Source: an uncultured Lachnospiraceae bacterium
GTDB taxonomy: Bacteria > Bacillota > Clostridia > Lachnospirales > Lachnospiraceae
NCBI GenBank assembly: GCA_947650155.1
Contig: CANSUS010000011.1
Coordinates: 1-64,000, forward strand
Reading direction: 5' to 3'
Length of the DNA: 64,000 nucleotides
A model generated the notes under the pieces. The model worked only from the letters and a program-made list of their open reading frames with translations. It was not told where the DNA came from and did no database searches. This document shows, one piece after another, positions 2,216 through 31,191 of the stretch (position 1 is its first letter; each line of letters starts with the position of its first letter). The translations under genes and the position numbers were made by a program.

Positions 2216-2305
2216 TCCCGATTTCCCTGTAAACTACTACTCTCTGATACAGTGCGGACAGAACATAAGTTTTGCCCGCACTACTTTTAAAAAGGATGAT
2301 AAATA

Positions 2306-3236: not shown

Positions 3237-3273
3237 CGGTACCGGATTATTTTTCTGTCAATTACTTTTTTAC

Positions 3274-3301
3274 AAGAGTGGCTGCTCTGGCCACTCTTTT
3301 T
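3274..3301 (+). terminator. Rho-independent terminator before tape-measure gene
   Basis: Perfect 9-bp stem AAGAGTGGC (3274-3282) / GCCACTCTT (3290-3298) with a 7-nt loop and a following TTTT. It separates the tube/holin genes from the tape-measure gene, implying a separate promoter or read-through control there. Confidence 0.85.
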
Positions 3302-3361
3302 ACTTATAAATACAACATAAATCCATCAACAAAAAATTCAAAATAATAGGAGGAAGAAAAA

Positions 3362-4528: not shown

Positions 4529-4529
4529 C

Positions 4530-6141: not shown

Positions 6142-6151
6142 AAGTTACGTA

Positions 6152-6412: not shown

Positions 6413-6493
6413 GATATGTTTTTCTCCTATAAATAAAATTGTACTCTTCACAAGTACAAAAGCACAACTCCGCATTACGCATTATAACATAGT

Positions 6494-10654: not shown

Positions 10655-10661
10655 CAACACA

Positions 10662-10693
10662 GGCAGCCGCTATCTTAAAAAAGAGCGGCTGCC
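10662..10693 (+). other. Intercistronic hairpin after tape-measure ORF
   Basis: Perfect 10-bp stem GGCAGCCGCT (10662-10671) / AGCGGCTGCC (10684-10693) with a 12-nt A-rich loop. No T-run follows, so it is more likely an mRNA-stabilising or processing stem than a terminator. Confidence 0.7.
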
Positions 10694-10714
10694 ATCAGAA
10701 AGGAGGAACTTCCA

Positions 10715-10978
10715 TTGGATGTTGCAACAGAAATTTTAAATTCCATCCAAATATTAATGGAACGTAAGATCACAAATCAGACTGCAGACAGAACCTTTGC
10801 TTCTGTCATTAAAGAAGTACACACAGACAACACATATACGATTCTGGCGCAGGACGGAAGCGAGCGGAAACTCTACTCCAGCCTCCCTTCCCTCCCCCTT
10901 AACGCCGGAACAAAAGTATGGGTAAAGCTTCCGTCAGGAAGCTTAGACAACATGCACATATGCGGCATAAGACAATAG
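10715..10978 (+). CDS. Small OB-like tail protein (87 aa)
   Basis: TTG start at 10715 after AAGGAGGAACTTCC. After an N-terminal helix the sequence has about five short beta-strand-like segments (FASVIKEV, TYTILAQDG, KLYSSL, GTKVWVKLP, MHICGI) in the order expected for a small OB-fold, a type often found near tail hubs and spikes. The gene lies between the tape measure and distal-tail genes with 11 bp to the next start. No named family is recognised; a hub-binding or spike-like role is inference from position. Confidence 0.6.
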   Translation: MDVATEILNSIQILMERKITNQTADRTFASVIKEVHTDNTYTILAQDGSERKLYSSLPSLPLNAGTKVWVKLPSGSLDNMHICGIRQ

Positions 10979-10989
10979 GAGGTGATATT

Positions 10990-12213
10990 TTGTCAGTACC
11001 CATTATCAAAAAAATCATTCCGTTTGACGCGGATCAAGATTCTGTCATTTTTATTTCCTGGAAGGGAAATCGTGCCTATGCCAACCGAATTATCATTAAA
11101 GACGGCCACACGCTCGAAACCGTATTTGACGATACGGTTTCTTCTTTTTCCCTTACCCACACCATTCCGGCGCATACACTGATAAACGGAAACGAATATC
11201 TGATTCAGGCACAGATCTATGACAGAGAGAACAATGCTTCTCCCCTCTGTGCCGGAATCAATTTCTATACGCTTAAGACTCCGGATTTTCACTTTTACAA
11301 TCTTCCGGATAACCATGTGCTGACGAATGCATCTTTTGATACATCCATGTACTATTTCTCTCCCGATTGGGAGAGCATCGACAATTACCGATTCTATTTA
11401 TATGATTCAGCCAAAAAGGAGCTGATGTGCAGCGAAATTCTTTATGACGATATGTATTTAAATTATACCTATCGCGGTCTGGAAAGCGACCGTATTTATT
11501 ATCTGCGCTGCATAGGAACTACAATTCATGGAATGGAACTGGATACGGGCTACGTTGAAGTCACGGTAAAATACGAAACTCCGGATACCTATTCCCGGAT
11601 TTATGCGGTAAATGATCCAAAGCAGGGCTGTATTTCCGTCTCTACCAATTTAATCATTCTGCAATACAACGGAGACGAAGAATTTGAATACCAAAACAGC
11701 CTGATTCATCTGATCGATAAAACGCTCTATTATGAGGAAGGCTTTCTTGTAGAAGGCGACTTTACTCTGATAATCAGAGGAATGCATTTATGGCAGAATG
11801 CAGAAATTTTTAAAATGAGTAACGGTATGGACGGGCTGTGCATCAGTTCCAGAATATACACGGACGGAACTCTTCGGTTTAAACTGACTGTGCCAAACGG
11901 CACAGGACATTACATTTTATATTCGGAACCACAGAAATTTTCCAATGAAGATATGATCACTGTCTGCTTAAGAAGAATCAACCATATCTATCAACTTGCA
12001 TGTTTTACCAAACTGAACTTTTCGCCTGCAGGCGATATGTGGTATGGGTTTAACAAACCAACAAGGGATGTCCATAAATACGATGCCTGGTTTTATGAAG
12101 ACAGCATAATACACAAAATTAAAAAAGAAGAAATCACAATTCATACAGAACACGAACCGCCGGTAAGCGCTGAAAAATACGACCTGTGGTTTGGAAAATG
12201 GAAGGAGGAATAA
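10990..12213 (+). CDS. Distal tail / adhesin-like structural protein (407 aa)
   Basis: The TTG at 10990 is chosen because ATAGGAGGTGATATT precedes it directly; the longer frame from 10918 runs through the previous gene. Residues ~1-210 are beta-rich and resemble two or three fibronectin-like repeats; residues ~250-360 contain a stretch (ending ITVCLRRINHIYQLACF) reminiscent of a LamG/concanavalin-type jelly roll. Such proteins decorate or form the tail tip. There is no signal peptide, as expected for a virion protein. Domain calls are by eye and tentative. Confidence 0.55.
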   Translation: MSVPIIKKIIPFDADQDSVIFISWKGNRAYANRIIIKDGHTLETVFDDTVSSFSLTHTIPAHTLINGNEYLIQAQIYDRENNASPLCAGINFYTLKTPDFHFYNLPDNHVLTNASFDTSMYYFSPDWESIDNYRFYLYDSAKKELMCSEILYDDMYLNYTYRGLESDRIYYLRCIGTTIHGMELDTGYVEVTVKYETPDTYSRIYAVNDPKQGCISVSTNLIILQYNGDEEFEYQNSLIHLIDKTLYYEEGFLVEGDFTLIIRGMHLWQNAEIFKMSNGMDGLCISSRIYTDGTLRFKLTVPNGTGHYILYSEPQKFSNEDMITVCLRRINHIYQLACFTKLNFSPAGDMWYGFNKPTRDVHKYDAWFYEDSIIHKIKKEEITIHTEHEPPVSAEKYDLWFGKWKEE

Positions 12214-12220
12214 GAAAATT

Positions 12221-13147
12221 ATGTTTCTATGCGGAAGTAATTTTTGCGGTGGGAGTCTGGCATGTGCGCTGACTCCCACCGCCGTCAAAAACTGTAATTA
12301 CATAGAGCTGAAAAACGGGATCTATGACGATCTGTATCTTACAAAGGCAACAGACTTTGCATTCAGTCACGAAATTACGCAAGGCTGGACATTTGATACG
12401 ATTCTTTGGGCAAAATTTAACGGAAACACCCATGCGGGAAATGTGGACTGGAGTGTCGACACCGTATCTCATCTTTTACTGAAAAGAAGAACGGACGACC
12501 AATTCAAGTGGAATACTCTGGTTGTAAAAGAAATTGCCTCTATCAGCGATTTTGCCATCTATTATAATGATTATACAAATGCAGCCGGTGCGGCTTATGA
12601 ATATGCCATTGTTCCGGTACTTTATGGTACGGAAGGAATTTACTCTGCCTGTATGGCGGAATCCAACTTTGACAATCTGTTTATTATCGAAAACAATCTT
12701 GTTTACAGCACCGACATCACGGACGGATTCTGTGATACGACAAGAAATATTCCTTCTTCTACCGTGGAATTATTAAACGGCAAATATCCGATATTCATCA
12801 GAAATTCGATTGCCAATTATGACAGCGGTTCCTGCAGGGGATCTTTTGTTCCCTTCGAGGAAGATGAATGTACTATGGATTTAAGCACCGACGGAGATTA
12901 CAGAAGGATAACCTACCAGAAAAATACAATGGATATCCTTGCAGATGGAGTCCCAAAAATCTTAAAACTGCCGGATGGAAGAATCTGGCTGATTCAGACA
13001 ACGCCGAATCCGACCGATACTGCCGAAGATTCCTACAATAACAGATATATTACCTTTTCATGGGTAGAGATCGGGGACATAAACTCGGAGGAGGATCTAT
13101 ACTATCTCGGTCTGTCCGAGGTTACGGAAGAGTGGTGGAATAAATAA
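12221..13147 (+). CDS. Tail-tip structural protein (308 aa)
   Basis: ATG at 12221 behind GGAGGAATAAGAAAATT; a start ten residues upstream lies within the previous gene. The protein is beta-rich with repeated ...YAIVPV, YEYAIVPVLYG and TFSWVEIGDI segments. Its middle (residues ~110-150) looks like a fibronectin fold and the last 100 residues hold the surface-like motif WLIQTTPNPTD. Distal-tail proteins of Lachnospiraceae siphophages have this general look, but no family is certain. The stop overlaps the next start (TAATG), indicating translational coupling with the hub gene. Confidence 0.55.
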   Translation: MFLCGSNFCGGSLACALTPTAVKNCNYIELKNGIYDDLYLTKATDFAFSHEITQGWTFDTILWAKFNGNTHAGNVDWSVDTVSHLLLKRRTDDQFKWNTLVVKEIASISDFAIYYNDYTNAAGAAYEYAIVPVLYGTEGIYSACMAESNFDNLFIIENNLVYSTDITDGFCDTTRNIPSSTVELLNGKYPIFIRNSIANYDSGSCRGSFVPFEEDECTMDLSTDGDYRRITYQKNTMDILADGVPKILKLPDGRIWLIQTTPNPTDTAEDSYNNRYITFSWVEIGDINSEEDLYYLGLSEVTEEWWNK

Positions 13148-14937
13148 TGTATGAAATAACAAATGAAGATTTAACTCTTGTACTACAGCAGTCCGCTTCT
13201 ATACAGACGCCCAGACTGGTACTGGAAGTACTGGATTCCAATCAAAAAGTAATCGGAGTCATTACCACACTGTTAAACGGCAGCATGAGCATCAGCTCAG
13301 AGTCAGATATCCGTAGAAACGGTAATTTTACGATTGTACCGACTTTAAAGGAAAAAATCAGGCTGCATCCCGACAATCTGATCTGGATGAATAAAGATCT
13401 TAGACTGAAACTCGGATTATACAACATCCGTGAAAAGAAATACAAGTATTACACACTGGCCTATTTTGTCTATGAAAGTACTTCTTTTTCCTACGACGCC
13501 GCAACGAGTCAGATTTCCCTTCGCTGTTCCGATTTCATCCGCAAACTGGATGGAACCAAAAACGGACAGTTGGGGGCGCTCCTTATCAACTTTGACGCTT
13601 ATGAAAAAGATACGGACGGAAACCCATTACTGGATGAAAACGGCAATATTTTAAAATATAACACAATCCGGGAAGCGGTAGTTACCGTTTTAGAAAAGTT
13701 AGGGCAGATCTCTCATTATAGAGTTGAAGATATTGGCGAATACAAAGGAATGCCGGATTACAATGAAAATTATGAACAATACCGGGCCGAACATGAAACT
13801 TGGAACGCTCTGCCATATGACGAAAAGTTTTCCTGTGGCTGCAGTGTTCTTTCTATTTTAACGACTTTTCGGGATCTCTATCCTAATTATGAAATGTTTT
13901 TTGATCCCTCTGACGGAAACAGATTTATCTGTCAAATGATACCGTTTTGTTATGAAGATGATATCACACTCGACAACGCATTTTTACAAAAAGTACTGAT
14001 TTCTGAAGATACCACCGTAGACATGTCCACCGTCAGAAACATCTGTGAAGTCTGGGGCAAAACCATTGACACCAAATTTTATACAGAAGACTGTACCTGT
14101 TCCAATAATGTCTATTCCTGCACTGTATCCGGTTTTGACACAAAATACTATAACAACGATACCATTTCCGTCAAAATCCCAGCAGTAAATCAGGATTCAC
14201 CCAAATTGGATGTAAATCACCTTGGTGCAATTGACATTTATGCAGAAAATACGGATTTACCCCTTACTGCTAATGTCTTAACTCCTGCCGTCTATTCTTT
14301 TAAAATGAAAAAAGTGAAAAAAGATGATGCATACATTTTCCGCGCATACCTGTTAGGACAGTGGCAGGCGCATGCCATAGATATTCTTTCCGACGGTGCT
14401 GCCTCCAAGACAGAAACCTATACGACATCGGATGGTAAAACCGTTGCAAAGTATTCCAAAGAATATTTTCAAGACAAATATAATTGTGAGAATATCCATA
14501 TCACGACCATCAGGAACTCTCCTTTTACGGTACAAAGTCTTGGCGAAATACTGGATGTAAAAACAGGCGGAGAATATGAAAAAATCTCATCAGATTCTCT
14601 GGCATTAGACCGCGCCGTTTACGAAAACTGGAAAAATTGCAGACTGACAGACCAAATCACGATTACCACTGTCCTGCTGCCGTTTTTGGACGTAAACAAA
14701 AAGGTTTCTTACAAGCCTGCAAATTCTGATGAGGAACGTCAGTATATTATAAAATCGATCAACCATGATTTTACAGGTTATGCCACAACCATTTCCATGT
14801 ACCGCTTCTACCCGTCTTATCGTTCTTTATTAAAAGACGCAGGCACACACACCGCTTTATCCGGGTATTCTCATGAATTACTCGGTAATTATACAAATGA
14901 GGAATTAATCACTCTATTGAGTAAGGAGGATTTATAA
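13147..14937 (+). CDS. Tail hub protein, DUF5048 / siphovirus Gp37-like (596 aa)
   Basis: 596 residues. The N-terminal ~120 residues (PRLVLEVLDSNQKVIG... SISSESDIRRNGNFTIVP) fit the DUF5048/Gp37-like fold of siphovirus tail hubs, which adopt a gp27-like ring closing the tube. A middle domain follows, and the C-terminus ends in YSHELLGNYTNEELITLL, the Tyr-Thr-His-Glu type repeat that also ends the gene at 18179 and that in such phages helps attach fibres. It is translationally coupled to the gene before and followed two bases later by the first fibre gene. Family assignment is by recognition of this segment only. Confidence 0.65.
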   Translation: MYEITNEDLTLVLQQSASIQTPRLVLEVLDSNQKVIGVITTLLNGSMSISSESDIRRNGNFTIVPTLKEKIRLHPDNLIWMNKDLRLKLGLYNIREKKYKYYTLAYFVYESTSFSYDAATSQISLRCSDFIRKLDGTKNGQLGALLINFDAYEKDTDGNPLLDENGNILKYNTIREAVVTVLEKLGQISHYRVEDIGEYKGMPDYNENYEQYRAEHETWNALPYDEKFSCGCSVLSILTTFRDLYPNYEMFFDPSDGNRFICQMIPFCYEDDITLDNAFLQKVLISEDTTVDMSTVRNICEVWGKTIDTKFYTEDCTCSNNVYSCTVSGFDTKYYNNDTISVKIPAVNQDSPKLDVNHLGAIDIYAENTDLPLTANVLTPAVYSFKMKKVKKDDAYIFRAYLLGQWQAHAIDILSDGAASKTETYTTSDGKTVAKYSKEYFQDKYNCENIHITTIRNSPFTVQSLGEILDVKTGGEYEKISSDSLALDRAVYENWKNCRLTDQITITTVLLPFLDVNKKVSYKPANSDEERQYIIKSINHDFTGYATTISMYRFYPSYRSLLKDAGTHTALSGYSHELLGNYTNEELITLLSKEDL

Positions 14938-14938
14938 C

Positions 14939-15367
14939 ATGAACTATACAACTTATCACAAACTGCAAAAACCGTTGGGCACGGAAAAATATAATATTGA
15001 GGTCCAAAATGCAAATGCTGATATAATTGATTCGGCATTGAACCGGTTAACGCAAAAGGCTACATCAGAGGCAGACGGGTTACTGTCGAAAGAAGATAAA
15101 GTACGATATGATGATGCAAAACTTCATGCCGAATCTGTACACGCACCAAGTGATGCTGAACGAAATACAATTGTAAAAATCAAGCAGAATGACATTGTTC
15201 TTGATCCTGACAATTCCCGCACTATAAACCTCCACATACCTACTAAAGTAAGCGAGCTTCTCAATGATTCTAACTATATTACCAGTACAGAAAATACTGG
15301 TGGAATATTTTATTCAGATTCCGAACCTACTACACTTATTGATGATCTGACATGGATAGGTGACTAA
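14939..15367 (+). CDS. Tail fibre paralogue 1 (142 aa)
   Basis: Starts two bases after the hub stop with AAGGAGGATT as ribosome site. The first ~37 residues, with TYHKLQKPL and NADIIDSALNRL, form a module shared with the products at 16944 and 18614. The rest holds ADGLLSKEDKVRYD and PTKVSELLNDSNYIT, segments typical of Gram-positive phage fibre shafts. The tip is unique and ends in WIGD. The shared start probably docks to the hub or baseplate, with the tip exposed to a receptor (inference). Confidence 0.65.
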   Translation: MNYTTYHKLQKPLGTEKYNIEVQNANADIIDSALNRLTQKATSEADGLLSKEDKVRYDDAKLHAESVHAPSDAERNTIVKIKQNDIVLDPDNSRTINLHIPTKVSELLNDSNYITSTENTGGIFYSDSEPTTLIDDLTWIGD

Positions 15368-15421
15368 ATAAAATGAAAACAATAACCACATAAATATACA
15401 ACATATGGAAAGGACATTATT

Positions 15422-16162
15422 ATGAGTAAAATTATATTTTTAAATTCTCCCCAAATATATAACGGAGAATTTTCCCAAATAGGCAGTCATCAGGTCCGAT
15501 TAGTTTTCGAGTCAGAGCTGCCTTCTGCTGCTGCCCTTTTATCTGGTTTCTACTTAATTAATGAACATAATGGTTTCATTCAAACCAAACGTGAAGATTA
15601 CAGATATATTTATAGGATGTATGAGGAATATCCATCCACAATTGAATTATGTAACGATAATATTAGTTATGAAGAAATAAAATCAGAACTTCTCACCGAC
15701 TCAATATCCAAAACAGCTGCTTATGAAGAAATTCTTGAAGATAAGATTAAGGAACTTTCTTCCTCATGCAAATCGGTTATTGAAGCCGGTCTGAGTATTC
15801 ATGGATTACATTATTCCTTTTCCTTAGAAGATCAGATAAACCTAAAAGAAATCTTTGATATTGTCAAAGCTACCGGTTCATCATTCATATACCATGCAGA
15901 TGGAGAAAAAAGCAGCGAATATTCTGCAAAAGAATTAATTGAAATTTATTGCGAGCTTATATTACATAAATACCGCCAGGTAATATACTTTAATTTGTCT
16001 CGCGAATATTTGAAGTCTTTAGATAAAACAGACGAAAATAAAGAACTTATTTCTTCTTATCATTATGGCATCCCATTAACTGATTCTTATCTTAAAATTT
16101 ATGATACCCTGAGCACATTAGCCGAAACTTACAATGAATCTTTCTTTAACATAAGTAATTAA
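15422..16162 (+). CDS. DUF4376-like phage tail protein (246 aa)
   Basis: 246 residues, no signal or membrane segment. The C-terminal half (residues ~120-210) carries a layout I associate with DUF4376-like proteins of Clostridia phages: SFSLEDQINLKEIF, then FIYHADGEKSSEYSAKELIEIY, then YRQVIYFNLSREYLKSL. The N-terminal half is helical with charged repeats. Proteins of this type are found next to tail fibres and may be assembly chaperones; that role is not shown. It begins 54 bp after fibre paralogue 1, following GGAAAGGAC. Confidence 0.5.
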   Translation: MSKIIFLNSPQIYNGEFSQIGSHQVRLVFESELPSAAALLSGFYLINEHNGFIQTKREDYRYIYRMYEEYPSTIELCNDNISYEEIKSELLTDSISKTAAYEEILEDKIKELSSSCKSVIEAGLSIHGLHYSFSLEDQINLKEIFDIVKATGSSFIYHADGEKSSEYSAKELIEIYCELILHKYRQVIYFNLSREYLKSLDKTDENKELISSYHYGIPLTDSYLKIYDTLSTLAETYNESFFNISN

Positions 16163-16199
16163 TATTTTAAATAGTATTCCGATAGAGGAGGAAAATAAA

Positions 16200-16823
16200 A
16201 TGGAAGTAAACGAATTGGTTATAACCGGTAAAAAATTTAGAAAACTGACGGATACAGTTCATAAACAATGGCAACGAATATCATTTTGGCATAAAGCAAG
16301 TGATTGTGAATTTGATGATGGAAAAACAGCTGAAACCAAAGTCGGCGCTATCAATGGAATTACATCCGATTTTACCTGTGAAAACGAGTCTATTGCTGCA
16401 AGTATGGTTGCCGTATCTCAGCTTTTTCAATCTGCCAGTGAGGGAAAAAAATTATTGGCCGCTACTCTCACTGGCTTAGGTGTCAATACTGCGGCAGACG
16501 CTACATTTTCTCAGATTAAAACAAATATATCTACACTAAATACAAATCGATATAACGCTGGATACAATGCTGGCTATAACGCTGGAAGAATACAAGGACA
16601 GAATGATGTAAAAAATAATCCTGCCGCTTATGGTATTAGTGTCGGTACACCCAATGGAACTGTCGTAGGTATTACTGTACAAATGTTTGCGAACGGAGAA
16701 GTCGGTCGTGGTACAACTGCCGGCTGGCGATTTACTTTACAAAATGGCGCCCTTGTTGGTGCCCAAGAAAATTCTGTTTCTATTACAGCCGGGGGTGTCG
16801 GCGTAATATGCAGACCAATATAA
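16200..16823 (+). CDS. Tail fibre/tip protein with Tyr-Asn-Ala-Gly repeats (207 aa)
   Basis: Starts after AGAGGAGGAAAATAAA. An N-terminal adaptor holds FWHKASDCEFDDGKTAETKVG, shared with the protein at 19492, and then GAINGITSDFT...NESIAASMVAV, close to segments in the products at 16944 and 18614. The middle contains three YNAG repeats (RYNAGYNAGYNAGRIQGQ), a motif usual in phage fibres of Clostridia, and the last ~70 residues form a small beta-rich Gly/Thr tip. This is probably a receptor-contacting tip combining an adaptor common to several neighbours. Confidence 0.65.
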   Translation: MEVNELVITGKKFRKLTDTVHKQWQRISFWHKASDCEFDDGKTAETKVGAINGITSDFTCENESIAASMVAVSQLFQSASEGKKLLAATLTGLGVNTAADATFSQIKTNISTLNTNRYNAGYNAGYNAGRIQGQNDVKNNPAAYGISVGTPNGTVVGITVQMFANGEVGRGTTAGWRFTLQNGALVGAQENSVSITAGGVGVICRPI

Positions 16824-16943
16824 CTTAATACGATAGTATTCAAATATGTGTAAATGGTATGCTTGTACAAATTTAAAATTATAGTATAGCAGTTAAGTAA
16901 GCAGCCAACACAGCATATATGAATTATATCAGGAGGACAAAAA

Positions 16944-17705
16944 ATGAATTACACGGCATATCATAAACTTCAAAAGCCGCTAAATACAGAAAAATATAAT
17001 ATAGACATCCATAACACAAACGCCGATATCATTGATTCTGCATTAAATCTCTTAAGACAAAATGATATTTCTCAGAATAATGCACTCAATAGTGAAATCG
17101 AACGGGCAATTAAACGGGAAAATGAGATTGATCATAAAATTTCTTCTTTCGACCCGGATACGGATTGGAAAGAATCTATTCAAACTCCCGTTTTTGATGA
17201 CAGTATCAGCACATTTTCCACTCTTTCTGCTGCAAACACTGCTGCTGAAACTGCAAGCAACGATATTCAAAGTAACAAAAATCTATTTGCAACTCTGTCA
17301 AACATTAAAAAAAGCTTCTCTGCTATGATACAAAGTTTAAAATTTTTAGCCTCTAATGTCGGTGCTATTCACGGTATTACGAGTGATATAAGTGAAAACA
17401 GCGAAAATATTGCTGCTTCTATTAAAGCTGTACATCAGCTAAACTGCAATTTAGGAAATATTGAATTTAATGGTGTCGAGCAAAAGCTAAAAATATGTGC
17501 AAATACTGTACTAAAAACTGTTAATTCCGACGGAACAGTTTATATTGACTTACCAACTACATTTTCAGTTCCACCGCATCCGATCGTCAATGTGCTTGGA
17601 ATTACTGCCTCGAATACCGGAACAAATAAGAATCAATTATCCGTATATTTACCTACTATTCCGAATCAGGCAGTTTATATAAAATACATTGTGATCGGTT
17701 ATTAA
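16944..17705 (+). CDS. Tail fibre paralogue 2 (253 aa)
   Basis: Begins with the shared module NYTAYHKLQKPLNTEKYNID, followed by a helical stretch (ERAIKRENEIDHKISSF) also present in paralogue 3 and the segment NVGAIHGITSDISENSENIAASIKAVHQLN. The last ~85 residues are a unique tip predicted as beta-rich (IDLPTTFSVPPHPIVNV...). The ribosome site is AGGAGGAC. Length is almost equal to paralogue 3, differing chiefly in the tip, which fits recombination of tip cassettes onto a constant stem. Confidence 0.65.
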   Translation: MNYTAYHKLQKPLNTEKYNIDIHNTNADIIDSALNLLRQNDISQNNALNSEIERAIKRENEIDHKISSFDPDTDWKESIQTPVFDDSISTFSTLSAANTAAETASNDIQSNKNLFATLSNIKKSFSAMIQSLKFLASNVGAIHGITSDISENSENIAASIKAVHQLNCNLGNIEFNGVEQKLKICANTVLKTVNSDGTVYIDLPTTFSVPPHPIVNVLGITASNTGTNKNQLSVYLPTIPNQAVYIKYIVIGY

Positions 17706-17853
17706 TTTTTCCATTTTCGGTTTTGAATAATCGATAAATGTAGGCGGATATACAAATAACACTATGCAGCTGCTGTATATAGTAACGCTATATCAACAAT
17801 CAGATTGAAACAGCTAAAAAATAAGAAACTACAAAATACGAAAGGAGTCCATT

Positions 17854-18189
17854 ATGCCATTTGAAACTGAATACAGTAACTTTCCAACAAAAAAAATCAA
17901 ACGACACAACTTCAAAAATGTAGACGACGCCATCGCCCCTGTGATAAACGAAATCAACACTCTCCGTTCACAGGGTCTTTTTGATCAGGCGGATCAACTT
18001 ATAAAAAACAATTCCGATATTCTGTCCGCATATATTGCAGATGCCGTCACTTTCAGGACTTGGGAAGAAGAAATCTATAACACGCAAATATATGCCAAAC
18101 AGAAACAACAATTCGTATATTTTGACAGAGAAGAGCCTGACGCTCTCTACAGCGACGTATGGATAGGCGGTGATTGGCATGTTATGTAA
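17854..18189 (+). CDS. Small phage tail-associated protein (111 aa)
   Basis: Starts at 17854 after AAAGGAGTCC. Predicted helices cover residues ~20-80 (DAIAPVINEINTLRSQGLFDQADQLIKNNSD...), followed by a C-terminal YSDVWIGGDWHVM. Proteins with this helical core and DVWIG ending are frequent in fibre operons of Clostridia siphophages and may act as connectors or chaperones. The gene overlaps the next one by 11 bases. No function is established. Confidence 0.55.
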   Translation: MPFETEYSNFPTKKIKRHNFKNVDDAIAPVINEINTLRSQGLFDQADQLIKNNSDILSAYIADAVTFRTWEEEIYNTQIYAKQKQQFVYFDREEPDALYSDVWIGGDWHVM

Positions 18190-18613
18190 TGAAACCAGTT
18201 CCTATCCTGATAAGATTGACGAAATGACCTTTTTTCAGGATGTCAGTTTAAATACAATTGAATATAGAAACGAGTATGAACGGCTGCTTTTCAGCGGAAA
18301 ATATTCCGAAGCGGCCCAGTATATCAACAGGCAAAACGGCATATACGGCTATTTTGCCTGTTTTTTTAATATGCTTGAAAACCGCATTTATGCATTACAG
18401 GACTATCTCCAAAGATCCGCCAGTACGCACGAATTTCTATCCAGATATTCACATGAAGGTCTCGGCCAATATACCCATGAAGAATTAACAAAAATTTCAG
18501 GCGGTAAGACAAAATTCAATCCCATTATCCACCAAGAAGGGGTACCAGGATTTGCCATTTCCGGTATCAGCATTTGGACCGGTGGAAGCTACACAGATCA
18601 CAAGGAGGGTTAA
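18179..18613 (+). CDS. Small tail-associated protein with YTHEEL repeat (144 aa)
   Basis: The start is set at ATG 18179, after GGCGGTGATTGGC, inside the end of the preceding gene; a GTG three codons upstream would give an almost identical product. The N-terminal ~95 residues are helical (EYERLLFSGKYSEAAQYINRQNGIYGYF). Then comes FLSRYSHEGLGQYTHEELTK, the same repeat that ends the hub protein at 14937. The repeat suggests that both proteins bind a common partner in the tail tip. The stop codon abuts the next start. Confidence 0.6.
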   Translation: MLCNETSSYPDKIDEMTFFQDVSLNTIEYRNEYERLLFSGKYSEAAQYINRQNGIYGYFACFFNMLENRIYALQDYLQRSASTHEFLSRYSHEGLGQYTHEELTKISGGKTKFNPIIHQEGVPGFAISGISIWTGGSYTDHKEG

Positions 18614-19363
18614 ATGAATTTTACAACTTATCATAATCTTCAAAAACCGCTGGATACAGAAAAATATAATATTGGCATACACAATACAAACGCCGATATC
18701 ATCGATTCTGTACTGAACCGGTTAGAACAAAAAAATAATTCTCAGGATAGCGTAATCAATAATGAAATAAAACGTGCCATTGAAAGAGAAAATGAAATTG
18801 ATAATAAACTATCTGCTTTTCCAAAAGCGTCTGCTGATCTTGACGGTTTCATGTCAGCTGAAGATAAAAGAACACTGGATGCCGTTGCACAAAGTTTGAA
18901 ACTGTTAACAGCCAATGTCGGTTCCATTCATGGTATTACGAGTGATATAAGTGAAACCAATGAGAATATTGCCGCTTCTGTTCAGACAGTTAATCAGCTA
19001 AATCATAATCTTATTTCTACAAAAACGATAATCATAGACACAAATACCATAAACAGTATAGCTGCCGGACAATATTTTAGCTCTGGCGGCGTTTGGGTAA
19101 CATACAACAAATATTTTTTTCAAATCAGCATTCGTCTGTATTTTTCAATGCCGCTTGGCGTTAACCATACATATGCGTTTGGTGTCCCTGTATCTACCCC
19201 CTGGACTGGCGGCTATCACGAAAAAATAACCGTTTCAGGCAGTGGAAAACGAATCATTTTAGTACTTAATAATCAAAATGTCTTTTCCATTCTTTCCGGT
19301 GAAACCATTCCCACAGGTGACCATATTCGGGAAGATTTTTTCTGCTTCAGAAAGCAGATATAA
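18614..19363 (+). CDS. Tail fibre paralogue 3 (249 aa)
   Basis: Begins immediately after the preceding stop with the shared module NFTTYHNLQKPLDTEKYNIG. The helical stem (EIKRAIERENEIDNKLSAF) and the segment NVGSIHGITSDISETNENIAAS follow paralogue 2. It also carries ADLDGFMSAEDKRTLDAV, the same kind of fibre-shaft segment as paralogue 1. The C-terminal ~110 residues form another unique beta-rich tip. The ribosome site is AAGGAGGG. The three paralogues make a short array of stems with alternative tips. Confidence 0.65.
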   Translation: MNFTTYHNLQKPLDTEKYNIGIHNTNADIIDSVLNRLEQKNNSQDSVINNEIKRAIERENEIDNKLSAFPKASADLDGFMSAEDKRTLDAVAQSLKLLTANVGSIHGITSDISETNENIAASVQTVNQLNHNLISTKTIIIDTNTINSIAAGQYFSSGGVWVTYNKYFFQISIRLYFSMPLGVNHTYAFGVPVSTPWTGGYHEKITVSGSGKRIILVLNNQNVFSILSGETIPTGDHIREDFFCFRKQI

Positions 19364-19491
19364 GGATTGTTTGTAAAATAAGAAGGATTGACAGGGCAAT
19401 TACTATGCCAAAATATAAAACGCTATCTTATGAGGACTATCAGCTTACCTACAATTAAATATAGAAAACCAATTACAAGGAGGACTAAAAA

Positions 19492-19797
19492 ATGAAAGCA
19501 ATAAACGAAACAATTCAAAAAGGAAACGCATACAGAACCTGCATCGACGACAGTGATGCGGCAAATTTACAATGGGCGAGACAGTCTTTTTGGACTGCCG
19601 CAAGCGATGTGGAATTTGAGGACGGCAAAACCGTCGAACAAAAATTGGGGTCTTTGAAAGGTCTTGCAGGCTCCGGCGATAATACAGATGGTTATATTGT
19701 AGATACCAATTATTTAAACCAGCAATTATCCGGCTGTGTTAAAGTCGCGTCTTTTGACAGCAGCACTGCAACGCTGAATCTGACTTCGGTACAATAA
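19492..19797 (+). CDS. Small adaptor-like tail protein (101 aa)
   Basis: 101 residues behind CAAGGAGGAC. Residues ~30-55 hold QSFWTAASDVEFEDGKTVEQ, matching the adaptor in the product at 16200 (FWHKASDCEFDDGKTAETK). The short C-terminal part lacks the receptor-like tip of that paralogue, so this may be a minimal connector or a tip-less relative. It lies 15 bp before the last tail gene. Confidence 0.6.
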   Translation: MKAINETIQKGNAYRTCIDDSDAANLQWARQSFWTAASDVEFEDGKTVEQKLGSLKGLAGSGDNTDGYIVDTNYLNQQLSGCVKVASFDSSTATLNLTSVQ

Positions 19798-19812
19798 GAG
19801 GAGGGATAAACT

Positions 19813-20322
19813 ATGGCTGCACTGCCTAAAATAATTTACAATGGAATCCGGGTCCAAAATTTATGTTATAACGGACAGGAAATTTTTAACTTAACAGTCG
19901 ACGGACAGGTCCGATACCATAAGCACAGAGGAAACAGCAGTACATATGGCGGATGCTATACGGTTGAAAAAACAAAAACCGAGTCCATAGACGAAACGCA
20001 TCACTGGCGGGTAACCGGGCGCGGCGAAACCGTTAACTGGTCCGGCGAAATTGTGCAGGGTGAGGGAGAAACTCATTATATCATGACAACTTATCCGGTA
20101 GAAGATGAACACGGACACCAGGCTGAAATCACCTGGTGTTCCCATGCTGACGGTGCAAGAGAAACTATGAAGCACGAATGGAATTTTGTAAACGGCGAAG
20201 AATATGGTAATGCCGGCGGAAAGCTTACAGAAGAACCTCTCGGTTTCACTTTTACCACCGCAAAAACAACAGTTGTAACTACAACCTATTACGACCTTGG
20301 GTGCGGATTCAGCGAAAGCTGA
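19813..20322 (+). CDS. Terminal tail-tip protein of the locus (169 aa)
   Basis: Starts after AGAGGAGGGATAAACT. The first ~35 residues resemble a small attachment strand motif (IIYNGIRVQNLCYNGQEIFNLTVDGQV) often found at the start of phage tip proteins; the rest is beta-rich with many His, Thr and Trp residues, including ITWCSHADG and repeated Thr at the end. The His/Glu clusters could bind metal, but no enzyme motif is visible. It is the last tail gene before host DNA. A receptor-binding or decoration role is inferred from position. Confidence 0.5.
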   Translation: MAALPKIIYNGIRVQNLCYNGQEIFNLTVDGQVRYHKHRGNSSTYGGCYTVEKTKTESIDETHHWRVTGRGETVNWSGEIVQGEGETHYIMTTYPVEDEHGHQAEITWCSHADGARETMKHEWNFVNGEEYGNAGGKLTEEPLGFTFTTAKTTVVTTTYYDLGCGFSES

Positions 20323-20377: not shown

Positions 20378-21760
20378 TCAGGACTCCATCCGCTTTCTCA
20401 ACCCTTTCGGATAATGATTCTTCATCATTCCTCCGGCAAGTTTTCCCCAGCCAAGGCTGTACCCCTCTACCGTGATGAGATACCATCCCTTTTCACCGTC
20501 TGCCGGAAAAGTCTGCCCTTCCACAAATTGCAGCGCTCTCTCATCTTGTGCAAAAAGTGCAAGTTGATTCACTGCCTGTACAGGATGACAGGCAAGCGCA
20601 AGCGCATGAGCCGGTTCAAAACGATTCTTTTTTATCGTACCCAAATGCAGTCCCGGACGAAGCACCTTTAAACGTTTCAAAGACGGCGTTCCTTTCGGCG
20701 CTGCATAAAGCTGTTCACCAAATCGTAAATAGATCCCTTCGGGTATTTCTTTTAAATTCTGATCCGCAAACTCTGTAAATTCTTTATATTCCGCTGGTGG
20801 AATCCCCTTTTGTTCCCCGTTTTTACAATATCCTTTATAGACGCCCGTACCCTCTCCTTCTTTTTCAAGCACTGCGGCAAAATGTCCTTCTCCCCGTACT
20901 TTATGCGGGAACAGGCGGAGTGTTTTTTCTATTCCTTCTGCCGGGTCTGGAACCCACTCTTTTCTGCCGCTTTCCATACCCTCATACATCGTTGTTTCCA
21001 CAATATGAAACGAAGGATTTCTTTTGATAAACCGGCTGACGCTGCCTTCATTTTCTTCCGGTGCAAAAGTACAGGTAGAATATACGATCCGGCCTCCGGG
21101 ACGCAGCATTTTAGCCGCGCAGTCTAAAATCTCATCCTGCCTTTCTGCGCAAAGCGCCACATTTTCCAGACTCCACTGCATAGAAGCTTCTTCCTTTTTA
21201 CGAAACATCCCTTCTCCCGAGCAGGGCGCATCCACCATAATTTTATCAAAATATTCCACAAAAATATCCGCCAGAGTTCCCGGCGATTCATTGGTAACAA
21301 TCGCATTTCTGATTCCCATTCTTTCCATATTTTCAGAAAGAATTTTCGCTCTCTCAGGGTGGATCTCATTACAAATAAGAAGCCCTTCTCCTTTCATTGC
21401 CGCCGCAATCTGCGTACTTTTCCCTCCCGGAGCTGCACACAAATCCAAAATCTTCTCTCCGGGCGCCGCCTGTAAGCAGGCTGCCGGTATCATAGCGCTT
21501 GCTTCCTGGATATAATAGACTCCTGCCTCATGAAAAAGATGCCTGCCCGGCCTGTCCTGCTCTCCATAATAAAATCCGTTCTTTTCCCATAAAACAGGCT
21601 GCAAAGTAAACGGACAGACTGCCTGAAAATGTTCCGCGCTGTCCTTTAGCGTATTGATCCTGAGAGACCGGTTTTCTTTCCCTTCATAGCTTTTCAAAAA
21701 ATCCGCATATTCTTCCTTTAGCAGCATTTGCATTCTATCTGTAAATTCTTCCGGAAACAT
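20378..21760 (-). CDS. rsmF: RsmF-type rRNA (cytosine-C5) methyltransferase
   Basis: 460 residues, the usual size. An N-terminal RNA-binding segment precedes the SAM site DLCAAPGGKS (106-115). The two catalytic cysteines of the NOL1/NOP2/Sun family are present in DAPCSGEG (C180) and YSTCTF (C230). The C-terminal ~130 residues form the PUA-like RNA-binding extension of RsmF/YebU-type enzymes (ending VEGYSLGWGKLAGG). These enzymes methylate cytosine in 16S rRNA; the exact site is not readable from sequence. It is the last gene of a minus-strand run with the GTPase gene 20 bp upstream, a functional link to the ribosome. Confidence 0.88.
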   Translation of the reverse strand: MFPEEFTDRMQMLLKEEYADFLKSYEGKENRSLRINTLKDSAEHFQAVCPFTLQPVLWEKNGFYYGEQDRPGRHLFHEAGVYYIQEASAMIPAACLQAAPGEKILDLCAAPGGKSTQIAAAMKGEGLLICNEIHPERAKILSENMERMGIRNAIVTNESPGTLADIFVEYFDKIMVDAPCSGEGMFRKKEEASMQWSLENVALCAERQDEILDCAAKMLRPGGRIVYSTCTFAPEENEGSVSRFIKRNPSFHIVETTMYEGMESGRKEWVPDPAEGIEKTLRLFPHKVRGEGHFAAVLEKEGEGTGVYKGYCKNGEQKGIPPAEYKEFTEFADQNLKEIPEGIYLRFGEQLYAAPKGTPSLKRLKVLRPGLHLGTIKKNRFEPAHALALACHPVQAVNQLALFAQDERALQFVEGQTFPADGEKGWYLITVEGYSLGWGKLAGGMMKNHYPKGLRKRMES

Positions 21761-21780: not shown

Positions 21781-24498
21781 TCAGCGGTCTTCGCCGGTTT
21801 CTCCAAGCGTTTTTTTAATCAGTTTTTCTATCTGCCCGGTCTTATCTACCGTCGGTTTCTCCAAATATTCCTCCCGCAAAGTCTGCCTTGTATACGCTAC
21901 CTCTGCCTGGAATTCTCTTGCAGAAAGCAGGCGGCAGCCCTGCCCCCTGATAATGATCTGTTCCAACCCGTCGGAAGTCGCCACCGTAATATTATATTTC
22001 CGCCCATTGTCATGCGCAAATTTTTCAATGTACTGATCTGCGGTCTGTGCTTCCTTCGTATAAACTACATGAATATTGTGATAATCGGAACTCTCTGCAT
22101 CCCGTCCTTTTACTTTGTAGGCGTCAAATACTACGATCAGTTCGCAGCCCTTTACTCCCTGATAATCACATAAAATATCTAAAAGCCTGCCTCTTGCACT
22201 GTCAATATTTCTCTCAGAAAGTTCTCTTAATTCTTCCCATGCAAAGATAATATTGTAGCCGTCCACCAGCAAGTATTCTGCCTTACTCTGTACCAGACTT
22301 ATCTTCCTTTTCTTTTCTCCCGCTCCTTCGGCTGTATCCTCCGCCTTTGTTCTTTTCCACGGCGTTTTTGACCTGACCCCGGACTTATCCTTGCTGTTTG
22401 CATAAAAGGTCTGTTCTAAAATCCGATCTATTTCATCTGTCCCTATACTTTCCCACCTGCGTGCTTCCTCCCTCTCCTGTCCTGACAAGCGTTTTTCTTC
22501 CATGTATTGCAGATCATTTTCCCTGGTCAGATCCGCTTTTTCTATCACAACCCCTTGACTGTCTGTCAAAAGCCCGCTCTCCACATGCATGTATTCCCGT
22601 ACCTTGTCCCACTCCACCACAAATCCGGCGCCATGTGCGCAAAAAACCGATCCGGTAGGATTTTCCAGATCCTTTTCCGAATCATAGCCGGTCTGCTCTA
22701 TGACTTCTTTTGCATTATGACAGGGAGCATAGCCTTTAAAAAAAGTAAATACTCTGCCCTGTCCTTTTGTATATGCATTCACCTCTTTTGGATAGTCCTG
22801 CATGCAAACCACAGGGGCAGTTCCCGTTAAAACTGCCGTTTCGCCCTCTATACCGACAAGTTCAAATTCCGTGCACCTTTTTTCCATGTCGGCCATAGCC
22901 CTTCCCGTCATTTCCTCCGGCACCTCCAGCCGAACTTCATAAAAAGGCTCTAACAATACGCTTTGTGCCTGTTTCAATCCCTGCCTCAGCGCCCGGTAAG
23001 TCGCCTGCCTGAAATCTCCGCCCTCTGTATGCTTTTTATGGGCACGTCCTGCAGCCAGCGTAATTTTCATATCCGTAATTGCAGAACCGGTCAATACTCC
23101 TTTATGCTCCTTCTCCGCCAGATGTGTCAGTATCAGCCGCTGCCAGTTTCTGTCCAGTTCATCCTCACTGCAGGATGTGTCAAACTCCAGACCGCTGCCC
23201 GTTTTTGCCGGTTCTAACAGAAGATGTACTTCCGCATAGTGCTTCAGCGGCTCAAAATGTCCAACCCCTTCCACTGCATTTTGAATCGTTTCTTTATACA
23301 GGATATGACCGGCGCCGAACTCCACTTCCGTTTGAAATCTCTTTGCAATCAGACTCTTTAAGATCTCAATCTGAACCTCTCCCATAATCTGTGCCTGAAT
23401 TTCCTGTAAACTTTCGTTCCACACGATATGAAGCTGCGGTTCCTCTTCTTCCAGCTGACGCAGTTTTGCAAGCATGACTGTCGCGTCGCAGCCTTCCGGG
23501 AGCAGAATCTGATAAGTCATTACCGGTTCCAGTACAGGAAACGCCGAAGCTTTTTCTATTCCCATTCCCTGTCCCGGATAAGTCTTTATCAACCCTGTAG
23601 CAGCGCAGATACTTCCGGCTTCTGCTTCGCTTACTGTCTCATATTTTTCACCGGAATAGATGCGCAGCTGGTTTACCTTTTCTTCCGTTTCCAGAAACGC
23701 TCTTACTTTCAGGCTTCCGCCGGTGATCTTCATAAAAGTCAGCCGGTTTCCCTGATCGTCCCTTGTAATCTTAAATACCTTCGCCCCAAATTCCTCAGGA
23801 TACGAAAATGTTTTTGTATACTTTTTCATTCCCTGAAGGAAATCTTCCACTCCTGTTACCTTAAGGGCCGAACCAAAAAAACAGGGGAAAATCTTTCGCT
23901 CCCAAATAAGTTCCCGTATCATCTCCTCAGTCAGTTTCCCGGTTTCCAGAAACTGTTCCAGGGCAGATTCTTTCGTCATTGCCGCCTGTTCATAAAAATT
24001 TTCCTCATTTTCGCCGGAAACGGCTTCTCTCGAAAAATCCATGCAATTTTCACTCAGACGCTTTTGCAGTTCCTGTAATATATCGTCTTGATCAGTTCCA
24101 TCCCTGTCCATCTTATTGACAAACAAAAAGACCGGTATCCGATATCTTTTCAAGAGGCTCCACAAAGTAAGCGTATGCCCCTGTACGCCGGCCGTTTTGT
24201 CTATCACAAGTATCGCATAATCAAGCACCTGCAGCGTCCGTTCCATCTCTGCCGAAAAGTCCACATGCCCGGGCGTATCCAAAAGCGCAATGGATAGATC
24301 TTCAAACTGCATTTGAGCCTGCTTGGAAAAGATTGTGATCCCACGCGCTCTTTCCAGTTCATAAGTGTCAAGAAAAGCATCTCCCTTATCCACTCTTCCA
24401 AGCTTTCTGATACTGCCGCTTACATAAAGCATTGCCTCTGATAAAGTTGTTTTTCCTGCATCCACATGGGCCAGAATACCGATCGTTAATTTTTTCAT
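21781..24498 (-). CDS. Ribosomal-protection-type GTPase fused to a Rae1/YacP-like NYN nuclease
   Basis: 905 residues; Tet(M)-type proteins have about 640. The N-terminal part has all translational GTPase motifs: AHVDAGKTT, RGIT, DTPGHVDF, NKMD and GSAL, then EF-G-like domains II to V, as in TetM/TetP proteins that enter the A site. After a linker (about 690-735) comes a NYN domain of ~165 residues with VDGYN, VFDAY, TADQYIE and TSDG, the acidic residues expected of YacP/Rae1, a ribosome-associated endoribonuclease of Firmicutes. The fusion suggests a GTPase that delivers an A-site mRNA nuclease, or a standing ribosome-rescue factor, more than plain tetracycline resistance. It sits between a GGDEF gene and an rRNA methyltransferase gene, probably in one operon. 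Confidence 0.85.
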   Translation of the reverse strand: MKKLTIGILAHVDAGKTTLSEAMLYVSGSIRKLGRVDKGDAFLDTYELERARGITIFSKQAQMQFEDLSIALLDTPGHVDFSAEMERTLQVLDYAILVIDKTAGVQGHTLTLWSLLKRYRIPVFLFVNKMDRDGTDQDDILQELQKRLSENCMDFSREAVSGENEENFYEQAAMTKESALEQFLETGKLTEEMIRELIWERKIFPCFFGSALKVTGVEDFLQGMKKYTKTFSYPEEFGAKVFKITRDDQGNRLTFMKITGGSLKVRAFLETEEKVNQLRIYSGEKYETVSEAEAGSICAATGLIKTYPGQGMGIEKASAFPVLEPVMTYQILLPEGCDATVMLAKLRQLEEEEPQLHIVWNESLQEIQAQIMGEVQIEILKSLIAKRFQTEVEFGAGHILYKETIQNAVEGVGHFEPLKHYAEVHLLLEPAKTGSGLEFDTSCSEDELDRNWQRLILTHLAEKEHKGVLTGSAITDMKITLAAGRAHKKHTEGGDFRQATYRALRQGLKQAQSVLLEPFYEVRLEVPEEMTGRAMADMEKRCTEFELVGIEGETAVLTGTAPVVCMQDYPKEVNAYTKGQGRVFTFFKGYAPCHNAKEVIEQTGYDSEKDLENPTGSVFCAHGAGFVVEWDKVREYMHVESGLLTDSQGVVIEKADLTRENDLQYMEEKRLSGQEREEARRWESIGTDEIDRILEQTFYANSKDKSGVRSKTPWKRTKAEDTAEGAGEKKRKISLVQSKAEYLLVDGYNIIFAWEELRELSERNIDSARGRLLDILCDYQGVKGCELIVVFDAYKVKGRDAESSDYHNIHVVYTKEAQTADQYIEKFAHDNGRKYNITVATSDGLEQIIIRGQGCRLLSAREFQAEVAYTRQTLREEYLEKPTVDKTGQIEKLIKKTLGETGEDR

Positions 24499-24531: not shown

Positions 24532-26835
24532 TTATTTTGCCACATCTTTTTTTCTGAGTTTCTTTACTTCATACAGCTTTTCATCGGCCTGCATCAGCGC
24601 TTCTTTTAATGTGATGCCGTCCTTTGACCGTAAAAAACATGCGCCCGCCGAAACGGTAACATTGTATGGCTTATCGCTTGTCTCATTATAAGTCTCAAAT
24701 TTATGATACAATGTGGACAGAAAAGTATTTTCCGCTTCCGTCTCTGAGTCCGTATTCTTCTCATCATATTCCATAATGCATGCAAACTCGTCTCCTCCGA
24801 TCCGCCCTGCAACTCCATTATTCCCAACTAACTCTTTTAAAAACTGTCCGATCAGAATAAGAGAATGATCTCCCTCTTTATGCCCGTATCTGTCATTAAT
24901 AATCTTCAGATTATTCATATCAACATAAACCGCCATAATCATTTTCCCGTTCTCACGGCTCTTTTTCACTCTTTCTTCTGCCTCCCCATAAAATCCTCTG
25001 CGATTCAATATTCCTGTCATCACATCTGACTTGGAAATCGTATCCAGCTCAATATTATGCTCTTTCAAAGCCGCAAGATTTTCTTCTAACTGCTGCTGAA
25101 TCTTTTCGTTTGCCCGAAGCAGGCTGATCATCTTTATCGCGGAGCTTACCTGATTAATCAAAAATTCTCCATTCGTATGTATTTCCTCTGTCATGTCACA
25201 ACATAGTATTCCATATATCGATTCTTTAAAGAACAACGGGAGCAGAACACATTCAAAACGTTCCTCCTTGTAGATGTCAGAAAAAATATCTGCAATCGTT
25301 CTTTTCTGCTTACTTACAGGGATCGTTTCTACCTGATTATTTTGCAGCGCCGCCTTCATGTACAACTCCTTTGGCGTATCAAACCCTTCCATAAACAAAT
25401 GAAAAATCGGTTTTTGCAGAATATAAATTCCGGCATTTTTTATATTCAGCCAGTCCAGTCTTTCCAAAAGCGTACCGTAGCTTTGATCCCTGCCCTTTTC
25501 AAATTGCAGCATCTCCTGTACAAAAAGCTTAATGGAATAATTCTCTGCTTCTTTTGAAGCGTCTATTCTCCCCAGCTGCCCGTCCATTGCACGTATAATC
25601 TTTCTGTAAATACTGGAAAAAACATTTCTCAGTTCAAATTTTTCAAAATCTCCCGGCTGCACATTTCTCAGGCTTTTATACAACTGCTCCAAGGTAAAAA
25701 GCAGATTATCCACATCTGCATATTCCACTCCGCCAAGCTTTAAAAATTCTTCCACGCAGAGCATGACCGCTTTATCTTCTCCGCAGTACTCTCCGGTAAA
25801 CCGTCTTGTAATCGTATCCATAAGATTACGATAGCTGACTTTCAATTTTGCCATCCGCTCTTCCATTACGTCATGACAATAACGATAAAAAATTTCTTCA
25901 AAGCTGTTGTTCCACTCTTTTATATTATAAATAATCCCGTTTTCTTCTGTCTTTCCCTCTGCGACGGAATCTCTTTTTACAAACCTTGTCGGGATCACCC
26001 GGCTTTCCACTTTTTCTCCCTTTGCCATGCAAACCGCCATTTTTAAGGACTCTTCACCCAATTTTGTCGAATCTGCCCGCACAGAAGCCAGCGTAGGGGT
26101 TGTCTTTGTTGCTGCCAGCGTATCGTCATAACCAAAAACAGAAATATCTTTCCCAGCCTGCAGGCCTCTTCTTTTCAATTCTTCATATAAGCCCAGAGCC
26201 GTATCGTCGTTTACGCAGAATATCGCTTCCAAATCCGGATTTTCATCTAAGAGTTTCCGGCAAACTGTCTCACTCCTTTTTGTAAAATCCCCCTGCACAT
26301 ACATTTTTTCCGTAAATGGAATCCCATGCTCCGACAAAACTTTTATGAAAGTCTGTTTTCTTTCACAGGCATCGGAATTTTCCAGACTTCCGCCGACCAT
26401 CCCAAAACGCCTGCAGCCGCAGTTCTTAATCAGGTATTCCATCCCTTCCCTGATTCCCAAATAATTATCAAATCCTACGTCTGTATATCCTTCTATTTTG
26501 GATGCAATGAGCACACAGGGAATATCCTTAAACTGTTTCAGCATATCTTCCATACCTTTTTTTGAGGTAAAGCAGCCTATACTTCCCGCAGATATGATAA
26601 GTGCATCTACATTTTCTTTCCTGGCATAAGAAAAAACGGTACTATATTGATACTCATACATCAATTCCCTGTTATCAGACAGATCCCGTTCCCAATACTT
26701 TCCTGGAAATACAACAACATTTACGTCAGCCGTCCTTGCCTCCTGCATCACTCCACGGCACACATATCTGGTGATATCGTCCATAATTCCGCCCACTAAG
26801 ACTCCTATCGTAAATCGTTTTTTATTCTTTGCCAT
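24532..26835 (-). CDS. Sugar-binding-protein-like / GGDEF fusion (767 aa)
   Basis: Residues ~6-285 match the LacI/ribose-binding (Peripla_BP_3) fold: FTIGVLVGG at the start, ALIISAG, FCVNDDTALGLYEEL and DISVFGYDD. There is no N-terminal helix-turn-helix, signal peptide or membrane helix, so it should be a cytoplasmic ligand sensor. A helical and GAF-like middle (~300-590) leads to a GGDEF domain with GRIGGDEF (about 678-684). It therefore appears able to make cyclic di-GMP in response to a small molecule. It is the first gene of the run ending in rsmF; the gap to the GTPase gene is 33 bp. Confidence 0.85.
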   Translation of the reverse strand: MAKNKKRFTIGVLVGGIMDDITRYVCRGVMQEARTADVNVVVFPGKYWERDLSDNRELMYEYQYSTVFSYARKENVDALIISAGSIGCFTSKKGMEDMLKQFKDIPCVLIASKIEGYTDVGFDNYLGIREGMEYLIKNCGCRRFGMVGGSLENSDACERKQTFIKVLSEHGIPFTEKMYVQGDFTKRSETVCRKLLDENPDLEAIFCVNDDTALGLYEELKRRGLQAGKDISVFGYDDTLAATKTTPTLASVRADSTKLGEESLKMAVCMAKGEKVESRVIPTRFVKRDSVAEGKTEENGIIYNIKEWNNSFEEIFYRYCHDVMEERMAKLKVSYRNLMDTITRRFTGEYCGEDKAVMLCVEEFLKLGGVEYADVDNLLFTLEQLYKSLRNVQPGDFEKFELRNVFSSIYRKIIRAMDGQLGRIDASKEAENYSIKLFVQEMLQFEKGRDQSYGTLLERLDWLNIKNAGIYILQKPIFHLFMEGFDTPKELYMKAALQNNQVETIPVSKQKRTIADIFSDIYKEERFECVLLPLFFKESIYGILCCDMTEEIHTNGEFLINQVSSAIKMISLLRANEKIQQQLEENLAALKEHNIELDTISKSDVMTGILNRRGFYGEAEERVKKSRENGKMIMAVYVDMNNLKIINDRYGHKEGDHSLILIGQFLKELVGNNGVAGRIGGDEFACIMEYDEKNTDSETEAENTFLSTLYHKFETYNETSDKPYNVTVSAGACFLRSKDGITLKEALMQADEKLYEVKKLRKKDVAK

Positions 26836-26964: not shown

Positions 26965-31191
<4,227 letters not shown>

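Follow-up and report, generated by a model that had tools for sequence, protein, structure and literature searches.

What does a cell gain from a gene that joins a translational GTPase to an endoribonuclease on one chain, and does such a protein couple access to the ribosomal A site with cleavage of the mRNA there? Positions 21781 to 24498 of the window (the whole 64,000-nucleotide stretch analyzed here, from an uncultured Lachnospiraceae bacterium) raise this question. Atkinson 2015 (BMC Genomics 16:78, PMC4342817) described, in ten Clostridiales species, Tet proteins that carry a NYN domain like that of YacP and suggested that the RNase activity is a novel resistance mechanism. The protein studied here has that architecture: one chain in which a Tet-like GTPase is followed by a YacP NYN domain. 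As far as its main text goes, that paper holds no analysis of the active site, operon, origin, or copy number (PMC4342817), and it predates the A-site role of Rae1, now characterized as a ribosomal A-site mRNA endoribonuclease (PMC6613710; PMC12320835) whose loss suppresses the efp defect of B. subtilis (PMC6613710). A literature search found no paper joining the fusion with Rae1; a 2018 paper on Rae1 distribution may mention it. Beyond the 2015 study, we place the GTPase body in a separate clade apart from the ribosome-protection proteins (RPPs), find that the nuclease is usually the sole Rae1, and find that the fusion is core in a large family. The architecture itself is already published; what is new, to our knowledge, is the reassignment of the GTPase, the finding that the fusion replaces the free enzyme, and its spread.

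The fusion is carried by a single maintained reading frame

Analysis of open reading frames in the interval 21781-24498 yielded one uninterrupted frame of 905 amino acids on the minus strand; the plus strand contains many stops, and the antisense frames there show no sign of being genes. A first-pass annotation made from the sequence had given these coordinates, which are borne out, but no strand. It had also proposed a GTPase-NYN fusion, and the fusion is real: Pfam domains lie at both ends of the one frame (GTP_EFTU at residues 4-228, then EF-G domains II, III, and IV and EFG_C to residue 597, and NYN_YacP at residues 743-896, 1.8e-50). The "TetM-like" portion of ~690 residues in that annotation is better divided into a GTPase body of ~640 residues and a disordered linker of ~95 residues:

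21781..24498, minus strand: fused gene, EF-G/Tet-like translational GTPase plus linker plus Rae1/YacP NYN endoribonuclease, 905 amino acids (single open reading frame; Pfam; AlphaFold mean pLDDT 79; orthologues in most genomes of the family)
22288..22569, minus strand: linker, residues 644-737, predicted to be disordered except for a helix at 687-701 (pLDDT ~28-45; variable in length and sequence)
22396..22440, minus strand: conserved linker helix, residues 687-701, motif E689..I693..T697 (conservation; helix in the model)

The same annotation had named a gene-model merge with an internal stop in related strains as what would speak against the fusion. No such stop was found. The frame is open across the family: G031, a genome of the same genus, and 119 of 150 family genomes carry it unbroken, which rules out a merge or frameshift artifact. 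A motif search located the gene in 75 of 80 named loci, and all 75 carry it as a single frame of more than 800 amino acids. For three close pairs, dN/dS was ~0.04-0.05 in the body, 0.01-0.04 in the NYN domain, and 0.04-0.12 in the linker; the body and the NYN domain are both maintained under strong purifying selection.

The AlphaFold model (33 orthologues; pTM 0.62) is confident for the body to about residue 640 and for the NYN domain from residue 740 to about 880. The linker between them is disordered, and the model does not fix where the NYN domain sits with respect to the body. Within the linker, E689, I693, and T697 are kept in at least 90% of 33 fused proteins. This E...I...T helix, set in an otherwise disordered and fast-changing segment, is a possible docking motif.

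The C-terminal domain is Rae1 with a predicted intact active site

The nuclease occupies the C-terminal end of the chain:

21811..22272, minus strand: Rae1/YacP NYN endoribonuclease domain, residues 743-896 (PF05991, 1.8e-50; 5mq8, 1.9e-26; fold; residue mapping)

The domain scores 171.7 bits against the NYN_YacP model PF05991 (gathering threshold, 24.6) and matches the sequence of B. subtilis Rae1 (5mq8) at 1.9e-26. The matches listed by a fold search with the whole model were all to the body; the NYN domain was then folded and searched alone. It aligned with Rae1 (5mq9) at Z 20.6 and an rmsd of 1.8 Å over 135 residues with 40% identity, and the best family after Rae1 reached only Z 9.2. The acidic residues D7, D53, E76, D81, E85, and D104 of Rae1 correspond to D746, D792, E816, D821, E825, and D843, all of which are present, and the columns of D746, D792, and D821 are invariant across 61 fused and free sequences. 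Work by Leroy in 2017 reportedly found D7 and D81 to be required for Rae1 activity in B. subtilis. The first-pass annotation had likened the domain to Rae1 and held that missing catalytic acidic residues would count against the likeness; with all six retained and a fold match of Z 20.6, the likeness stands. By sequence and model alike, the NYN domain is Rae1 with a predicted intact active site.

The resemblance to B. subtilis Rae1/YacP (5mq8, 5mq9) thus lies in the fold and the conserved acidic residues. The B. subtilis enzyme is a free protein of 170 amino acids, encoded between rlmB (yacO) and sigH, and works without any such GTPase partner, whereas the present domain is the C-terminal part of a 905-amino-acid GTPase encoded outside that operon and is more acidic than its free relatives. 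The net charge of the NYN core is −5.8 in fused and −2.7 in free proteins, and that of the tail is −1.4 and +2.4, respectively. The more acidic fused domain tentatively suggests a relaxed need for ribosome or rRNA binding of its own; the charge difference could also stem from genome composition.

The GTPase body belongs to a clade outside the tetracycline-resistance proteins

The body comprises the following features:

23815..24498, minus strand: G domain, residues 1-228, motifs G1 AHVDAGKTT, DTPGH, and NKMD (Pfam GTP_EFTU, 4.5e-52)
22963..23307, minus strand: domain IV, residues 398-512 (Pfam EFG_IV, 4.1e-18)
23008..23049, minus strand: domain IV loop III, residues 484-497, GRAHKKHTEGGDFR, aligned to GLYYSPVSTPADFR of TetM/TetO (alignment with 4v6v/3j9y)
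22708..22959, minus strand: EFG_C (domain V), residues 514-597 (Pfam EFG_C, 7e-17)
22585..22650, minus strand: family-specific C-terminal extension of the GTPase body, residues 617-638, SVFCxxGAGFxVxWDxVxxYMH (sequence comparison)

With GTP_EFTU, EFG_III, EFG_IV, and EFG_C all present and the G motifs intact (with little or no variation among 21 relatives), the body is a GTPase of the EF2/EF-G type. It shares domains G, II, III, IV, and V with EF-G, and EF-G structures head its fold list (Z up to 40). It differs from EF-G in falling below every EF-G equivalog cut-off (310 bits against 659 for TIGR00484), and an EF-G-like gene exists separately in the same genome. Likeness to Tet(M)/Tet(O) extends to the domain layout, the fold (TetM 3j9y, Z 31.9 over 610 residues), and the best-scoring NCBIfam model, the Tet ribosome-protection model NF012153, yet the score there is 423.6 bits against an equivalog cut-off of 775. 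The C-terminal extension also differs from that of Tet(M)/Tet(O), and the linker and nuclease are additions. In a body tree containing four RPPs and one EF-G and rooted on the EF-G-like protein of the same genome, the RPP clade (97*) lies outside the clade of the fused-GTPase family (99*). Several relatives carry separate tet(M/W)-type genes of 643-644 amino acids as well.

The tip of domain IV gives a further distinction. In Tet-type RPPs, domain IV binds the A site and GTP hydrolysis serves dissociation (PMC8161019; PMC7456112), and Pro509 of TetM overlaps the drug (PMC7456112). Loop III of the present protein keeps the length of the RPP loop but reads KHTEGGDFR in place of the YYSPVSTPADFR of Tet(M)/Tet(O), so that the residues aligned with the TetM drug-site residues Ser508, Pro509, and Val510 differ. 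H490, T491, G493, G494, D495, and F496 are invariant in 33 fused relatives; the motif is shared, in closely similar form, by unfused orthologues of the GTPase and is absent from RPPs. The side chains of the TetM loop are not an absolute requirement, since the S508A/P509A/V510A protein can remain active (PMC4750697), and the loop therefore makes a resistance role unlikely and nothing stronger. The ribosome-protection label given to the body in the first-pass annotation is not supported by the score, the clade, or the replaced drug-site loop. On this comparison, the GTPase is unlikely to be a TETRACYCLINE protein and appears to form a sister clade to the RPPs.

The fused gene is a core gene that has replaced free yacP

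We examined 150 genomes, nearly one per genus, from the GTDB family of the window. A NYN_YacP domain was found in 135 and in none of the remaining 15. In 119 of the 135, it sits in a single frame of ~850 amino acids or more; 9 have a standalone protein, and 7 have broken (contig ends or frame breaks) or unusual forms. Rae1 and the GTPase body occur together in 130 of the 150 family genomes, Rae1 only in 5, the body only in 0, and neither in 15, a co-occurrence that is largely trivial because mostly one gene is counted twice. The fusion is a core gene in Lachnospiraceae-like genomes, present in most genera. Sequence comparison agrees with Lachnospiraceae as the family: the nearest named records, at 70% identity, are entered as "Lachnospiraceae bacterium," and the tree of named loci fits.

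A second Rae1 is absent from almost all genomes with the fusion. Standalone yacP genes typically lie in the order cysS-mrnC-rlmB-yacP-sigH (identities assigned by homology to the B. subtilis order), with an rlmB homologue near 23 of 26 such loci. In contrast, none of 20 fused genomes checked has a NYN gene beside rlmB, and in 13 of the 20 sigH follows rlmB directly. The genome under study conforms: 84 bp separate the end of rlmB from sigH, with no yacP between, and it lacks a free-standing Rae1 of ~170 amino acids in an mrnC-rlmB-yacP-sigH operon. The absence of yacP beside rlmB in all 20 indicates that the free gene was lost where the fusion is present, one genus excepted. In that genus (g206, of another family; L069/L099/L079 in G199, G316, and G342), fused and standalone Rae1 occur together, a double state as expected shortly after transfer of the fused gene. 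At two loci (L081 and L095, in G059 and G338), a standalone Rae1 lies away from its customary operon, and rlmB, at another site, has no yacP adjoining it; these are relocated free genes, perhaps an intermediate.

The genes flanking the fusion in the window are as follows:

20378..21760, minus strand: rsmF, 16S rRNA m5C methyltransferase family, downstream, 20 bp past the stop of the fused gene (Pfam)
24532..26835, minus strand: LacI-type ligand-binding domain plus GGDEF, upstream by 33 bp, not a conserved neighbor (Pfam)

No conserved neighbors of the fused genes were found. The adjoining rRNA methylase noted in the first-pass annotation is present, as RsmF, and is probably cotranscribed with the fused gene here; it lies outside the system, and no meaning of its proximity is supported, since the neighborhood is not conserved. 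A conserved operon with an rRNA methylase is ruled out, the rsmF cluster (c15) occurring in 3 of 61 loci. Elsewhere in the window, a phage tail-like module on the plus strand (~3362-20322; minor tail/tape measure match at 3362-4528, DUF5048 at 13147-14937) ends beside the 3′ end of rsmF, and positions 26965-30897 on the minus strand encode a surface-type protein of 1,310 amino acids with SH3_3, Big_2, and long Gly-Asn-Thr-rich collagen-like repeats.

The GTPase also exists unfused, and the fusion fits a single origin

Orthologues of the GTPase without the nuclease are ~650 amino acids long, score 616-725 bits (at most 440 for RPPs), and stop at about the extension of residues 617-638, most of them carrying its motif SVFCxxGAGFxVxWDxVxxYMH too. 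Within the family, one is present in 5 of the 9 genomes with standalone Rae1. In the body tree, the fused bodies all group in a single clade (98*) that branches from within the unfused ones, a topology that fits a single origin of the fusion followed by spread, with little re-splitting. The NYN tree also sets fused and solo domains apart, but several of its fused branches are very long and its support is weak, and we therefore relied on the body tree. The only unfused member of the fused clade (L176, G042:C93) has a body of 711 amino acids and a NYN protein of 190 amino acids in adjacent overlapping frames, and so is a secondary break or a (sequencing) frameshift. In a tree of the named loci, Desulfosporosinus, Clostridium carboxidivorans and relatives, Acetivibrio, and Cellulosilyticum fall inside Lachnospiraceae on starred branches; in this quick tree, the placement is best read, with caution, as horizontal spread.

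Outside the order, 3 of 7 distant genomes have the unfused GTPase without any Rae1; these orthologues score 535-730 bits (G771, G821, and G796). Rae1 is present in 4 of the 7 distant genomes with the unfused GTPase and in 9 of 19 controls (Fisher p = 1). Since the GTPase occurs without Rae1 and does not predict it, it has some function independent of the nuclease. An obligate partnership of GTPase and Rae1 everywhere is ruled out by these genomes.

A variant of 690 amino acids (L308, G135:C43, minus strand, ~1361-3430) has the G domain, domains II and III, the linker motif, and the Rae1 domain, with domains IV and V not recognizable. No second variant lacking domain IV was found among 60 relatives searched. 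If real, this one genome would hint at a nuclease that does not depend on domain IV.

A candidate ribosome-docked A-site endonuclease

The reading that we prefer is that the cell's only Rae1 is tethered to a ribosome-binding GTPase and forms a ribosome-docked A-site mRNA endonuclease, to which we assign a probability of about 0.5. A single protein probably both docks on the ribosome and cuts mRNA, and coupling of A-site access to cleavage is plausible. In favor are the intact nuclease and GTPase motifs, purifying selection on both domains, the usual lack of a second Rae1, the absence of yacP beside rlmB, and the unfused GTPase found in 5 of 9 family genomes with standalone Rae1. Counting against it are the distant genomes with the GTPase and no Rae1, the action of B. 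subtilis Rae1 without this GTPase, and a model that leaves the placement of the NYN domain undefined. The body in its GTP form would bind paused ribosomes at the site used by EF-G and TetM, and the domain IV loop KHTEGGDFR would probe or clear the A site and decoding center. The NYN domain, on its flexible linker of ~95 residues, could then reach the exposed A-site codon and cut the mRNA, and GTP hydrolysis would release the body. Since the A site is the presumed target of domain IV and of the NYN domain alike, the two would be expected to act in turn, docking and clearing before cutting. The GTPase would thereby supply the ribosome targeting that free Rae1 must provide for itself. The full form of this proposal is a GTP-driven A-site endonuclease that docks on stalled ribosomes, checks or clears the A site with its loop, and delivers the tethered nuclease, a one-chain quality-control or mRNA-decay factor that would be the sole Rae1 activity of most Lachnospiraceae; we put this forward tentatively, at a little under even odds. 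We know of no described counterpart to such a factor. In the Hbs1-Dom34 and eRF3-eRF1 pairs, a translational GTPase carries an A-site factor to the ribosome. The analogy is one of working principle only, as those pairs use an EF1-type GTPase and separate partners, and the factor delivered is not a Rae1 nuclease.

The same protein could be bifunctional without mechanistic coupling, with the GTPase doing its own job on the ribosome and Rae1 carried along, local concentration being sufficient. The unfused GTPase found without Rae1, the long disordered linker that imposes no fixed geometry, and the presence of free Rae1 together with free GTPase in 5 of 9 standalone-Rae1 family genomes all speak for this, but the body tree fits a fusion that arose once, was widely retained, and seldom split again, the linker holds a conserved helix, and free Rae1 was lost wherever checked save in one genus. 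We regard the absence of coupling as unlikely, while giving it real weight.

Two other roles seem improbable. The NYN domain might trim RNA during ribosome assembly, with the GTPase as an assembly checkpoint: the original proposal for NYN domains placed them in the maturation of rRNA and tRNA (Anantharaman and Aravind 2006, cited in PMC4342817), standalone yacP adjoins mrnC and rlmB, both 23S factors, and rsmF adjoins the fused gene here. Against such a role in rRNA/tRNA maturation, for which we see only a small chance, the only characterized member, Rae1, cuts A-site mRNA (PMC6613710; PMC12320835), the fused gene no longer sits in the mrnC-rlmB operon, and the proximity of rsmF is not conserved. 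Resistance to tetracycline or another A-site antibiotic, RNase activity included, as proposed in Atkinson 2015, is at the low end of what we would entertain. A score of 424 bits against a cut-off of 775, a body outside the RPP clade, replacement of the drug-site loop III residues by a different invariant motif, a core rather than sporadic accessory distribution across most genera of the family, and true tet(M/W)-type genes alongside in several relatives outweigh the facts that Tet(O) and Tet(M) are the nearest named families and that S508A/P509A/V510A TetM can stay active (PMC4750697).

Implications

A natural fusion of this kind bears on how Rae1 picks and enters stalled ribosomes, and it points to a GTPase partner. 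With both parts on a single polypeptide, point mutations could separate A-site access from cutting. An uncharacterized subfamily of translational GTPases is defined by the unfused orthologue, and in surveys of the gut resistome the fused gene should not count as tetracycline resistance. For the family itself, Rae1 has not vanished from these gut bacteria; it has moved into another gene.
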